Of a stretch of DNA of 33,734 bases, positions 19,040 to 24,164 are shown piece after piece (the stretch's first letter is position 1; every line of letters starts with the position of its first letter). The stretch covers positions 1 to 33,734 of the forward strand of contig JAJEGO010000041.1 of the NCBI GenBank assembly GCA_022819805.1. Reading direction: 5' to 3'. The notes beneath the pieces are model-generated. The model was not told the DNA's origin and ran no database searches. It was given only the letters and a program-made list of their open reading frames with translations. Origin of the DNA: Candidatus Dadabacteria bacterium (GTDB lineage Bacteria > Desulfobacterota_D > UBA1144 > Nemesobacterales > Nemesobacteraceae). Position numbers and translations under genes: made by a program.

Positions 19040-20059
19040 ATGATAGTAGTAATGAAGCCCAAGGCGACCAAAGAGGAGATAGACAAGGTCAAGTCCATCA
19101 TAAAGGAACTTGGCTACTCACCTCATCCGATCGAGGGAATTCTAAGGACTGTCATCGGAGTGGTAGGGGACGAGAGAGGAAAGCCTTATGACATGGACGC
19201 TCTAAAGCAGCTCCAGGGAGTTGAAAAGGTTGTTCCGGTGCTTCAGCCCTACAAGCTCACGAGCAGGGAAGTAAATGATGAAACCTCCGTCTTCAACGTG
19301 GGCGGCGTCAGCGTAGGGGATAAAAAAATTCCTATAATCGCGGGGCCATGCTCGGTTGAAAGTGAGGAACAGATAATGACAATCGCGGCTTCAATAAAAG
19401 ATTCAGGGGCGTCAATGCTAAGAGGCGGCGCGTTTAAGCCCAGAACTTCCCCCTATTCTTTCCAGGGTCTTGGGAAAGAAGGTCTTGAGCTTCTTGTCAA
19501 GGCAAAAGAAATGACCGGGCTGCCCATAGTTACCGAAATAATGAGCCCGGACGACCTTGAACTGGTCGAGGAATATGCAGACGTGCTTCAGATAGGAGCC
19601 AGAAATTCCCAGAACTACTCGCTTTTAAAACACGTCGGCAAGTCAAACAAGGCCGTCTTGCTAAAACGCGGAATGTCGACGACCATAAACGAATTTCTTA
19701 TGTGTGCAGAGTACATACTGTCGGAAGGTAACAGTAACGTAATGCTCTGCGAACGGGGAATAAGGACTTTTGAGACAGCCACCAGAAACACTTTCGATCT
19801 GAATGCCATCCCGGTACTCAAGGAAAAAACCCACCTGCCTGTCTTCGCCGACCCAAGCCATGGAACCGGCTACTGGCAGTATGTAATCCCGGTAACTTTA
19901 GCTTCAATAGCCGCCGGAGCAGACGGAATTATAATCGAGGTTCATAACAACCCGGAGATTGCGGTGAGCGACGGAGCCCAATCGCTTAAACCGAAAACAT
20001 TCAAGAACCTGATGGAAAAAGCCACTCCCGTTGCCGAAGCTATCGGAAGAACCGTCTAG
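19040..20059 (+). CDS. aroF: 3-deoxy-7-phosphoheptulonate synthase (DAHP synthase, type I-beta)
   Basis: 339 residues. Residues 1-65 are a ferredoxin-like regulatory domain ([17 protein letters not shown]...), as in the Thermotoga maritima enzyme, where it binds aromatic amino acids for feedback inhibition. The TIM barrel follows, with [39 protein letters not shown] and FADPSHGTG. It condenses phosphoenolpyruvate and erythrose-4-phosphate, the first step of aromatic synthesis. It has its own promoter and ribosome binding site, so it can be expressed apart from the aroB operon. The gene is convergent with purN. Confidence 0.96.
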
Positions 20060-20072
20060 AAATTCTCGATTT

Positions 20073-20675
20073 TCAGGAAGAAATCAAAACTTTTCTTCCA
20101 CTGAGAGTCAGTTTTCCCTCGCAGAAGAGCCTTATGGCTTCGGGCAATATCCTGTATTCCTGAGCGTGGACTTTCTCAAGCAGGGTTTCCTCCGTATCTT
20201 CCCCCGTAACCGGAACAACCGCTTGCAGAATAACCGGACCCGCGTCAACTTCTTCACTCACGAAGTGGACGGTGCAGCCCGTTTGCTTCACTCCGTAATC
20301 AAGTGCCTGTCTTACCGAATTAGTCCCCGGAAAAGAAGGAAGCAAGGAAGGATGAATATTGATGATACGGTCCCTGAAGCAGCCTATGAAGTAAGGAGTA
20401 AATATCCTCATGAATCCGGCAAGTACGACAAGGCCTATGTCATACCCGTCGATTTTCGCGACTATCTGCCTTTCGAACTCTTCCCTTGATCGAAAATCCC
20501 TACTGTTCACGAGTTCTACAGGGATACCGTGTTTCTTGGCCCTCTCAATCGCCATGACTCCCGGAGTATCACAGACAACCACCGCTATGTTCGCGGATTC
20601 TATACCGGAATCTATTACCGCCTGAAGATTTGTTCCGCTTCCGGAAACAAACACGGCAACGTTGGTCTTTGACAT
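20073..20675 (-). CDS. purN: Phosphoribosylglycinamide formyltransferase (GAR transformylase)
   Basis: 200 residues from ATG 20675; a GTG at 20684 would add three residues and neither start has a clear ribosome binding site. PurN adds a formyl group from 10-formyl-THF to GAR in purine synthesis. Motifs: VAVFVSGSGTNLQAVID at the N-terminus, VVLAGFMRIF, the catalytic INIHPSLLPSFPG (Asn and His) and TVHFVSEEVDAGPVI with the catalytic Asp. The gene stands alone downstream of the 5S RNA gene; purK and purE are 11 kb away. Confidence 0.95.
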   Translation of the reverse strand: MSKTNVAVFVSGSGTNLQAVIDSGIESANIAVVVCDTPGVMAIERAKKHGIPVELVNSRDFRSREEFERQIVAKIDGYDIGLVVLAGFMRIFTPYFIGCFRDRIINIHPSLLPSFPGTNSVRQALDYGVKQTGCTVHFVSEEVDAGPVILQAVVPVTGEDTEETLLEKVHAQEYRILPEAIRLFCEGKLTLSGRKVLISS

Positions 20676-20710
20676 CGCAGGCACCGGGAACTTTAGAAGG
20701 CAAGGAAAGG

Positions 20711-20734
20711 AAAGAAAAAAAAGGGCAGCTACCT
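20711..20734 (-). terminator. Terminator of the 5S rRNA gene
   Basis: On the minus strand, the last strand of 5S helix I (TAGCTGCCC) is followed directly by eight T and then a pyrimidine-rich stretch. A GC-containing stem followed by a T-run fits intrinsic termination, using the 5S closing helix as the stem. Confidence 0.55.
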
Positions 20735-20834
20735 ACTTTCCCACTCCTGAAAGGAGCAGTATCATCGGCCTATAAGGACTTAACTTCCGGGTTCGGGATG
20801 GGACCGGGTGCTTCCCCTTCAGTATAGCCACCCT
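20722..20834 (-). rRNA. rrf: 5S ribosomal RNA, solitary gene
   Basis: The minus strand carries the conserved 5S core: CCCGGTCCCATCCCGAACC, GGAAGTTAAG and CCGATGATACTGC, ending in GTGGGAAAGTAGGTAG. Ends were set by helix I: AGGGTGGCTA at the 5' side pairs over 10 positions (with two G-U) with TAGCTGCCCT at the 3' side. About 113 nucleotides, slightly short for 5S. No 16S or 23S gene or tRNA is nearby; the gene sits 46 bases after rpoD and has its own promoter and T-run terminator. Ends are uncertain by a few bases. Confidence 0.95.
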
Positions 20835-20843
20835 AGGTTTGTA

Positions 20844-20871
20844 AAATTACCACTGGAGAGAATAATGTCAA
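20844..20871 (-). promoter_or_regulatory. Promoter of the solitary 5S rRNA gene
   Basis: Minus strand: -35 TTGACA (20866-20871, perfect), 16-base spacer, -10 TAATTT (20844-20849) preceded by TGG, an extended -10. The predicted start at about 20837 is within three bases of the 5S 5' end deduced from helix I (20834). It fits entirely in the gap after the rpoD stop. Confidence 0.6.
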
Positions 20872-20880
20872 GCCGGAATG

Positions 20881-22374
20881 TCAGTCAGAGTTAAAACCCC
20901 TTATGGGAAGAGCTCTTCCGAACCTCTTGAGCTTCTTAATGGCCTTTACCTCGATCTGCCTTATCCTCTCGCGGGTAACGTTCAACTTCTTTCCTATTTC
21001 TTCAAGGGTGTATTCCTTGTCTTCATCTATGCCGAAGCGCATTTTGACGACTCCTTCCTCTCCGTTACTGAGGTTGGTGCACAGTGCGTTGCGCATGATC
21101 CGGTTCAGTTCCTTGGCCTCCAGCATGTCAAGCGGAGAAGTGGAAGACGGGTCCGAGATGATATCCATAAGCCTGCAGTCGTCCTCGCCATTAGGAGACT
21201 CCAGAGAAACCGGGTCGCGTGACACCTTCATAATCTTCAAGACCTTCTCAAGAGGCATATCCATTGCTTCGGCTACCTCTTCTGGTCTGGGCTCCCTTCC
21301 TAGTTTCTGCATCAAAGATCTTGAGACCTTGTTCAGTCTGTTTATGTTCTCGGTCATGTGAACGGGAATTCTTATAAGACTTCCTTGGTCGGCTATCGCG
21401 CGCGTAATGGCCTGTTTTATCCACCATGTGGCACAGGTTGAAAACTTGTATCCCATCCCATGTTCAAACTTTTCAACCGCTTTCATCAACCCCATATTGC
21501 CTTCCTGAACCAGATCGAGAAACGGCAGTCCCCTGTTAACGTATTTTCTCGCTATGCTGACGACAAGCCTAAGGTTGCACTCGATAAGTTTTTTTCTGGC
21601 TTCTTTAGTAGCTTTCTTTGCTTTCTCAAACCTGCTAAGCACCCTCTTAAGCGAAGCAATTTCCTTTTCGGAATACTCAGATTTCAAACCATTGCCATTC
21701 GCATCGCCCGAATCATCCATCATGCAGTCACAATCCCCACTCTCAACTCTGTCCACATACTCGACGGCCAGATTGTATATCCTGCTAGCTTGTTCCGAGG
21801 AGAAATCGATTTCGTCGAGAAGTTCAACGGTCCGCTCGTTGTTTTTCCTGATTTGTCTGGATATCTTCGCTCTTTCTCTATCTGAAAGCGTCGGAATATT
21901 GAGCTTTTCTCTCAGTTCCTCGTTCTCAGCGAAAAGTTTTCTGATGGGAAGAAAGTTTTTTGCAGAATTGCCGTATGCTTCGCCGTCAGCGGAGGATTCG
22001 ATGTCCTCGCCCTGGTAGGAGACTTCGCTCGAACCGAGTGCCCCGTCTTTTATTTCCTCTTCGAGCTTGAAAACCTTTTTCATCATGAAAGGGTTCTCTA
22101 TTATCATTCTCGCGATTATTTTTTTGCCTTTTTCGATCTGTCTTGCTATTTCAACCTCTTCCTCCTTGGAAAGGAGGGAGTGCTGGGCAATAGCGAGAAT
22201 GTACGATCTTATAGGATCCTGTTCGGAATCATAGCTCTTTACGTTTTTGAGCTTGTCTTCCGTTTGAGAATCAGCCGCGGTGTTTCGAAGGCCCTGTATG
22301 GGTTCAGAGAATTCCCCTTCGTCCTGCCCGCTGATTTCATTCCCCAAACCGTTACTTTCGTCGTTCGGGTTCAA
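20881..22374 (-). CDS. rpoD: Primary RNA polymerase sigma factor (sigma70/RpoD)
   Basis: 497 residues from a TTG overlapping the dnaG stop (TTGA), with AGAGGA 8 bases upstream. Order: region 1.2 (DPIRSYILAIAQHSLLSKEEE), an acidic non-conserved insert, region 2 (NLRLVVSIARKYVNRGLPFLDLVQEGN), region 3, and region 4 ending RERIRQIEVKAIKKLK. Region 1.1 looks short. Oddities: in region 2.3 the motif reads KFSTCATWWIKQAITR, with Cys314 where nearly all primary sigmas have Tyr (Tyr430 in E. coli). The next segment is ADQGSLIRIPVHM rather than ADQARTIRIP, and region 4.1 has NGEEGVVKMRFGI. Position after rpsU-dnaG is the classical rpoD context. Confidence 0.95.
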   Translation of the reverse strand: MNPNDESNGLGNEISGQDEGEFSEPIQGLRNTAADSQTEDKLKNVKSYDSEQDPIRSYILAIAQHSLLSKEEEVEIARQIEKGKKIIARMIIENPFMMKKVFKLEEEIKDGALGSSEVSYQGEDIESSADGEAYGNSAKNFLPIRKLFAENEELREKLNIPTLSDRERAKISRQIRKNNERTVELLDEIDFSSEQASRIYNLAVEYVDRVESGDCDCMMDDSGDANGNGLKSEYSEKEIASLKRVLSRFEKAKKATKEARKKLIECNLRLVVSIARKYVNRGLPFLDLVQEGNMGLMKAVEKFEHGMGYKFSTCATWWIKQAITRAIADQGSLIRIPVHMTENINRLNKVSRSLMQKLGREPRPEEVAEAMDMPLEKVLKIMKVSRDPVSLESPNGEDDCRLMDIISDPSSTSPLDMLEAKELNRIMRNALCTNLSNGEEGVVKMRFGIDEDKEYTLEEIGKKLNVTRERIRQIEVKAIKKLKRFGRALPIRGFNSD

Positions 22375-24164
22375 CCTGCAGTTCCTCTTATGGTTTTTTC
22401 CATGCTCACCAGGTCCCTGTACTGCTCAACAAGCTCTCTTTCAAGGGTCTTATCCGAAGAGTCGCGCTGCTTGCGGATTTTGTCTATCACTTCGCTGCGC
22501 TTAAAAGCTATATCTCTCAGTTCAAGTTCCCTCACACAGTCACCTAATATTTTCTCCGAAGTTGTCTCGTCTATCAAATCATCCGAAGAAAAAATCAACT
22601 CGCTCAGCAACTGCTGCATCTCGATTTTTTCAAAAGAACTCATCAGGGAGGAAATCTCAGTAAACTCCCCTTCACCCACACGTTTGAGAATAACCTTTAA
22701 ATTGCCATTTTCAAAATGCTTCCCGACATTTTCAATTTTCTCAGCCCTAAGCAGGTGGGGAAATTTAAGCAGTATCCTCACAATTTCTCTCTCGTGAACG
22801 CTTTTTTCCGGAATCAAGGCTGTCGGCGCAAGCGACCCGCGGTTTCTTCCCGGGTCCGAATTTTTCACCAGAGAAAGAAACTCAGACTCCCTTATCCCTA
22901 AAACCCCTGTTGCCTTGGAGACGGCTTCGGCCCTTCGGACCGGGTCTTTTATTTTCGAAACCATATCCGCAAGAAATCTCAATGATTCTCCGGAAGACAT
23001 TTTCTTTTCCCTGTATCTCGCGAAGGTGTCGTCAATAATAAAATCGGAGACATCAACGGCGCCCGTAATCAGTTCGCCGAGACTACCCGGACCGTGCTCC
23101 TCCAGGTAGTCATCTGGATCAAGACCGTCGGGAATACGGCAGATACTCGAGGAAACCCCCTGTTCAAGAAGAATCTCTCCGGCCCGGACGGCGGAACGTA
23201 TACCCGCGGCATCACCGTCGTAGACAATCACTACCTCTTCGCAGAAACGCCGCAGAAGCCTGGCGTGCTCATTGGTAAAAGATGTTCCCAAGGTCGCAAC
23301 CACATTGCGTATTCCATTCGCGTAGAGCTTTATGAAATCCATGTAGCCTTCAACCAGAACGGCTTTCCGGTTTCTTCCGATTTCATTTTTCGAGTGATAA
23401 AGCCCGTAAAGAACGCTTTTCTTGTCAAAAACCGGCGACTCGGGGGAATTCATGTATTTCGGCTGTTTCGGGTCGTCTTCCGTCAGGGTTCTGCCGCCGA
23501 AACCGCAAATTCGTCCCGTTATTTCGTTTATGGGAAAAATGATCCTGTTTCGAAACCGGTCGTAGTGTCCGCTTCCGTTTTCTTTCGCAATGACAAGGCC
23601 AAGTTCTTCAAGTTCCCTGGTACCGATTTTCTTTGCCGAAGCGAACTTTACAAGGGCTTCCCAACCGTCGGGAACGAAACCAAGCTTAAATTCCTTGATT
23701 ATCTGCGAGGTGATTCCCCTTGATTCGAGGTACTCCCTGGCCTGGGCGGAGTTTTTCCCCGAGGCGAGGAGTTTTTTGTGGTAAAACGAACAGACAAGGG
23801 AATTTATCTCAAAAAGTCTCGCCGATGCGGCCTCTTTTTTCTTCGCGCTCCCCGTGGGCGGACGCGAGGCCGGGAGCCTGACTCCGGCCTTCCGTGCGAG
23901 TTCTTTTAAGGCTTCGTGGAAACCTATATTGCTGTACCTCATCAGGAAGCCGAATACATCCCCTCCGGCTCCGCAACTGAAGCAGTGGAAAAAACCCTTC
24001 TCATCATTTACATGCATGGACGGGTTATTGTCGTCGTGGAACGGGCAAAGCCCAATGTGGTTTTTCCCAGATTTTTTAAGGGAAACAAAGCCCTGTATAA
24101 CATCTACTATACTGAGCCTTGCCTTTACATCCGCTATCGCTGATGTGAAAGAGGAATTCTTCAT
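22371..24164 (-). CDS. dnaG: DNA primase DnaG
   Basis: 597 residues. The N-terminal zinc-binding domain has Cys40, His43, Cys61 and Cys64 in LCPFHDDNNPSMHV and FFHCFSCGAGGDV. The RNA polymerase core includes FRNRIIFPI and GFGGRTL; the TOPRIM fold has VLVEGYMDFIKLY and VVIVYDGDAAGIRSAVRAG. The C-terminal ~150 residues are the helicase-binding region, variable in sequence. It makes RNA primers at replication forks. It ends overlapping rpoD by four bases, and rpsU lies 69 bases upstream, forming the macromolecular-synthesis operon. Confidence 0.97.
   Translation of the reverse strand: MKNSSFTSAIADVKARLSIVDVIQGFVSLKKSGKNHIGLCPFHDDNNPSMHVNDEKGFFHCFSCGAGGDVFGFLMRYSNIGFHEALKELARKAGVRLPASRPPTGSAKKKEAASARLFEINSLVCSFYHKKLLASGKNSAQAREYLESRGITSQIIKEFKLGFVPDGWEALVKFASAKKIGTRELEELGLVIAKENGSGHYDRFRNRIIFPINEITGRICGFGGRTLTEDDPKQPKYMNSPESPVFDKKSVLYGLYHSKNEIGRNRKAVLVEGYMDFIKLYANGIRNVVATLGTSFTNEHARLLRRFCEEVVIVYDGDAAGIRSAVRAGEILLEQGVSSSICRIPDGLDPDDYLEEHGPGSLGELITGAVDVSDFIIDDTFARYREKKMSSGESLRFLADMVSKIKDPVRRAEAVSKATGVLGIRESEFLSLVKNSDPGRNRGSLAPTALIPEKSVHEREIVRILLKFPHLLRAEKIENVGKHFENGNLKVILKRVGEGEFTEISSLMSSFEKIEMQQLLSELIFSSDDLIDETTSEKILGDCVRELELRDIAFKRSEVIDKIRKQRDSSDKTLERELVEQYRDLVSMEKTIRGTAG

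Follow-up and report, generated by a model that had tools for sequence, protein, structure and literature searches.

On the minus strand of the window, the 33,734-nt stretch of Candidatus Dadabacteria DNA analyzed here, a 5S rRNA gene lies between rpoD, which encodes the primary sigma factor, and purN. The genes are closely spaced, with the rpoD stop codon followed by ~45 nt, the 5S rRNA gene, a further 35 nt and the purN start, and the genes upstream of the 5S (rpsU, recognized by eye, dnaG and rpoD) make up the macromolecular-synthesis operon. The Rfam 5S covariance model RF00001, which the initial annotation had named as a check of its assignment, matched over its full length (model positions 1–120; 90.1 bits, E 2.6e-18, gathering score 38) and was the sole Rfam match within the window. 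The five-helix 5S fold was kept across 27 relatives, with two-sided compensatory changes at 10 of the 32 pairs of the consensus fold, indicating that selection maintains it as a 5S rRNA. The best matches of rpoD were RpoD models (PRK05658, 443.5 bits; TIGR02393, 328.2 bits), both scores falling short of their curated cut-offs (555 and 354, respectively). The description and coordinates given by the initial annotation, with a TTGACA box, an extended −10 and a T-run, proved correct, the −10 (TAATTT, preceded by TGG) being weak. A DAHP synthase gene at window positions 19040–20059 is convergent with purN, and the purN–DAHP synthase order was retained in genomes G046, G052, G030, G013 and G026.

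Table 1. Features of the rpoD–5S–purN locus in the window.
Feature	Position	Strand	Basis and remarks
purN	20073..20684	−	TIGR00639, 228.6 bits (cut-off 150.1)
T8 run directly after 5S closing helix I	20715..20722	−	Sequence and fold; probable terminator or attenuator
5S rRNA gene	20720..20835	−	RF00001; only 5S copy found in the genome
Probable −10 element TAATTT, preceded by TGG	20844..20849	−	16-nt spacer; weak match (3/6)
−35 box TTGACA	20866..20871	−	Sequence and conservation in the phylum
rpoD, primary sigma factor	20881..22374	−	Upstream of 5S; stop codon ends at 20881
dnaG, DNA primase	22371..24164	−	TIGR01391, 437.1 bits (cut-off 283.6)
Probable rpsU (ribosomal protein S21), 62 aa	24234..24422	−	Identified by eye from the translation

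Among 58 genomes of the phylum Dadabacteria, 53 contained a 5S rRNA gene, including all 43 of those at least 90% complete. In 52 of these 53 genomes, rpoD preceded 5S directly and in the same orientation, the order that the initial annotation had proposed to look for in relatives; purN was located downstream in 51, and both neighbors were present in 50, the missing neighbor being on another contig in the three exceptions (G020, G051 and G053). The rpoD–5S gap measured 46–55 nt in the family of the window, 50–51 nt in family f5 and 62–73 nt in f8, and reached ~1.1 kb in f2 and f7. From these comparisons, we conclude that detachment of the 5S gene and its placement between rpoD and purN are fixed across the phylum. 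In one f7 genome (G030), a gene for a XerC/XerD-like tyrosine recombinase (L087:5178-6056) occupies the opposite strand between rpoD and 5S, and its start lies ~70 nt away from the 5′ end of 5S, whose predicted promoter is retained. An assignment of this intervening f7 gene as DAHP synthase was rejected, because the open reading frame there is the recombinase gene, the DAHP synthase gene being located beyond purN. The gene order from 5S to 16S was also considered as a clue to the relocation of 5S and was dropped, as the families share little beyond purN and DAHP synthase. The relatives found by RpoD include Candidatus Dadabacteria MAGs such as OX638332.1 (1,590,246 bases). One entry titled Poribacteria (L048, JAAXHI010000133.1) is probably a mislabeled Dadabacteria MAG, since its RpoD and the window RpoD share 93% identity.

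The predicted promoter of the 5S gene followed the same pattern of conservation. Every one of the 52 Dadabacteria loci with readable sequence had TTGAC 36–41 nt upstream of 5S, as TTGACA in 50 and as TTGACT in two (G001 and G056), which is consistent with the claim that the window gene has a promoter of its own. In 1000 shuffles, which break base order and ignore kinship, the box occurred in a mean of 0.15 and a maximum of 2 loci. The Dadabacteria families are only distantly related to one another, and they differ in their spacer and −10 sequences while sharing the −35 box. The −10 hexamer of the window agrees with the consensus at 3 of 6 positions and matches poorly across the genus, and a generic promoter scan of the window did not call the 5S promoter site; the −10 position is conserved within the genus (TATACT in G010, TATCTT in G014), which makes the −10 assignment in the window probable. 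Since initiation is expected ~35 nt after the −35 box, the predicted start, near 20835–20838, would coincide with the 5′ end of mature 5S or miss it by no more than a few bases, and little or no 5′ processing would therefore be required. Candidate 16S promoters in the same genomes consist of TTGACA with a 16-nt spacer located ~118–144 nt upstream of 16S, and this similarity to the 5S promoter site suggests that both could be regulated alike.

The position of the gene in a line of same-strand genes, with rpoD ending ~45 nt before it and purN beginning 35 nt beyond it, would also suit a different origin of the RNA, in which 5S is cut by RNase E/G from a long rpsU-dnaG-rpoD-5S-purN transcript and the TTGACA box is decoration or of minor use. 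RNase E/G is present and the −10 is weak, as this reading would have it. However, the −35 box and its distance from 5S are kept in every readable locus, and in G030 the opposite-strand recombinase gene separates rpoD from a 5S gene that has kept its promoter. Moreover, the cell needs as many copies of 5S as of 16S and 23S, and an mRNA-level source would serve this need poorly. We thus regard excision from a long transcript as improbable.

The same observations bear on the suggestion of the initial annotation that placement behind rpoD is a selected regulatory link, coupling production of the ribosome, primase and sigma factor. Retention of the order across eight families, or at least across all those with a readable locus, and the neighborhood itself, a macromolecular-synthesis operon, speak for such a link. 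Yet a predicted independent promoter is kept between rpoD and 5S everywhere, the gap between the two genes ranges from 46 to ~1100 nt and even accommodates the opposite-strand gene in G030, and a conserved order alone could result from one ancestral event followed by rare rearrangement. Hence the suggested coupling was not upheld, and we consider it very unlikely.

The separation of 5S from the other rRNA genes was directly evident in the genome of the window, a 1.57-Mb draft assembly of 71 contigs that is 93% complete. It contains one 5S, on contig C59, and one 16S and one 23S, both on contig C12 in a single 16S-tRNA-tRNA-23S operon. The 5S and 23S genes are thus on separate contigs, and 23S lacks the closely following 5S (a few hundred bases at most) of a standard 16S-23S-5S operon, none being found in the 6 kb beyond it. 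The next gene after 23S in this genome is on the opposite strand; a gene for a secreted protein resembling calcium-binding-repeat proteins (GGxGxD-type repeats by eye; L065:5854-7341) is convergent with the 23S gene end. No 5S was found after 23S in 11 other genomes with 0.7–5 kb of readable downstream sequence (12 counting the genome of the window), nor up to 1.5 kb away from the 23S of the f5 genomes G025 and G026, which has a place of its own. The single-contig genome G013 (1.59 Mb) contains one 5S, one 16S and one 23S, and its 5S locus has the same order as the window, so the arrangement is no fault of assembly; a 5S relic behind its 23S was not detected at E ≤ 1, and 5S lies 44.5 kb from 16S across the contig ends if the contig is circular. 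These results agree with the initial description of a complete 5S that does not belong to a 16S-23S-5S operon; neither a 23S beside this 5S nor a full set of normal rRNA operons, either of which would have counted against that description, was found. Because the assembly holds a single 5S and none behind 23S, the lone gene is the only candidate for a working copy, and we conclude that it is the working copy of the genome and not a degenerate extra. That it is an additional or degenerate copy, with an operon-linked 5S lost from an incomplete 71-contig draft, has a negligible likelihood given that the 23S tail was assembled together with 6 kb beyond it, that G013 carries only the rpoD-linked 5S, and that the window gene has intact covariation and a 90-bit score.

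Most Dadabacteria families hold 16S-tRNA-tRNA-23S together. The single-contig f5 genome G026 (1.16 Mb), in which 16S is found at 948–950 kb, 23S at 631–634 kb and 5S at 1145 kb, suggests that in f5 all three genes are apart. In f5 (G026, also G025; L075, L086 and L119), four tRNA genes come after 16S, and no 23S occurs within 5 kb. In G020, another contig carries a second full 5S (L097, G020:C85:4143-4259; also L098) that has neither a TTGACA box nor a 23S nearby; ~730 nt downstream of it, in the order of the record, an rpoD-like gene follows on the same strand. In the 23S of G014, what looked like an insertion of 1.2 kb was rejected as an intron, the stretch consisting of masked N.

At the 3′ end, the features differed between families. 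A T-run of at least 5 followed 5S in 42 of the 53 genomes, including all those of f1 and f7, 6 of 7 in f2 and half of f8, and none was found close by in f4 and f5. No separate terminator hairpin was found before the T-run in the window, the only abutting stem in the fold being closing helix I of 5S itself, and folding of 5S with its tail gave a stability no greater than that of shuffles. The initial view of a self-contained unit with its own terminator is therefore only partly borne out, by the U-run after helix I; f4, f5 and half of f8 lack a strong run of this kind, and the term does not apply to the phylum as a whole. The purN start is located 16–43 nt after 5S in f5, f8 and most of f1, which leaves little room for a promoter outside 5S, and purN may for this reason be expressed partly by read-through. 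Polymerase would probably continue into purN where the U-run is weak. RNase E/G was encoded in all 8 genomes tested.

Taken together, we favor, with a probability of about 0.88, the explanation that the window carries a working, single-copy, detached 5S rRNA gene, fixed between rpoD and purN, with its own σ70 promoter and with transcription mostly ending at the U-run. This explanation builds on the observed identity of the gene, its single copy, its detachment, its conserved neighborhood and the conserved position of its promoter. In the phylum, 5S has been detached from the rrn operon, which now ends at 23S, and in the mechanism that we propose a single ancestral relocation followed by inheritance would explain the conserved locus without a regulatory link. 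The ordinary σ70 holoenzyme would transcribe 5S from its predicted promoter, giving a transcript that presumably begins nearly mature at the 5′ end. In most families, polymerase would stop at the U-run behind helix I, the closing helix probably serving as the terminator stem. Some polymerase may read past the U-run and, where the run is weak, enter purN as little as 16 nt on; the 3′ end would be trimmed by cellular RNases, among which RNase E/G is available. A more specific version for the whole phylum, in which a leaderless promoter yields near-mature 5S, helix I and the U-run act as a leaky terminator, and purN, located 16–43 nt on in three families, is fed by read-through from an rRNA promoter, is tentative, and we consider it rather unlikely.

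In a small, non-random sample in which many other bacterial families were represented by a single genome each, 43 of 47 readable 5S loci were located just after 23S (mostly 32–363 nt), four were not, and none lay beside rpoD or purN; the arrangement in Dadabacteria is thus uncommon, as the initial annotation had held. The four detached 5S genes belong to unrelated bacteria (G146, G073, G079 and G127) and have no 23S in the 1.7–3.6 kb upstream. Two outgroup genomes taken at one point as unlinked were dropped, their upstream sequence being masked; G152 shows a 23S 3′ end, and G144 was unreadable. Like the Dadabacteria, G073 and G079 have TTGACA 35–36 nt before 5S, and G073 also has a T10 run directly after helix I, although in none of the four is 5S beside rpoD or purN. 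The promoter geometry of lone 5S genes may, on the evidence of G073 and G079, have arisen more than once.

Separation of 23S from 5S is called very unusual in bacteria in PMC8172020. According to PMC8467490, which cites Fukunaga and Mifuchi 1989, the rRNA genes of Leptospira interrogans are scattered, with one 5S per genome; this resembles the Dadabacteria in that the rRNA genes do not form an operon and 5S is single. In contrast to most Dadabacteria families, with their joined 16S-tRNA-tRNA-23S, 16S and 23S are in the same account of Leptospira also apart and each present twice. In CPR (Patescibacteria), 5S is separated from 23S in some circularized genomes, as in Dadabacteria, but the unlinking is reported there as variable, whereas it is uniform in Dadabacteria, with one conserved neighborhood and promoter. 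Broken-up rRNA operons are described as common in reduced genomes, with Mycoplasma suis, Wolbachia and Buchnera as examples, in PMC3091866 and PMC8172020; the break there usually parts 16S from 23S-5S, unlike the break between 23S and 5S in Dadabacteria. Detached 5S is therefore known, though rare, in bacteria, and the notable part is its phylum-wide fixation with a conserved neighborhood and promoter geometry. A literature search, which did not extend to Brewer et al. 2020 (reportedly on unlinked 16S // 23S-5S genes), returned no report joining Dadabacteria with this 5S arrangement and no phylum-wide case.

Tools that expect 5S behind 23S, or that treat the rRNA operon as one block in binning, will go wrong on Dadabacteria genomes. 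The presence of detached 5S genes with the same promoter position in two unrelated lineages makes the lone-5S organization testable by comparison. Dadabacteria genomes range from ~0.8 to 4 Mb and the arrangement is fixed among them, so detachment of 5S is not explained by genome reduction alone. If the leaky terminator and read-through into purN were true, a purine-synthesis gene would be tied to ribosome production. With 5S detached, the usual cutting from a precursor would not be needed at the 5′ end, and the cell would have to balance 5S against 16S and 23S from two separate promoters, not from one transcript.
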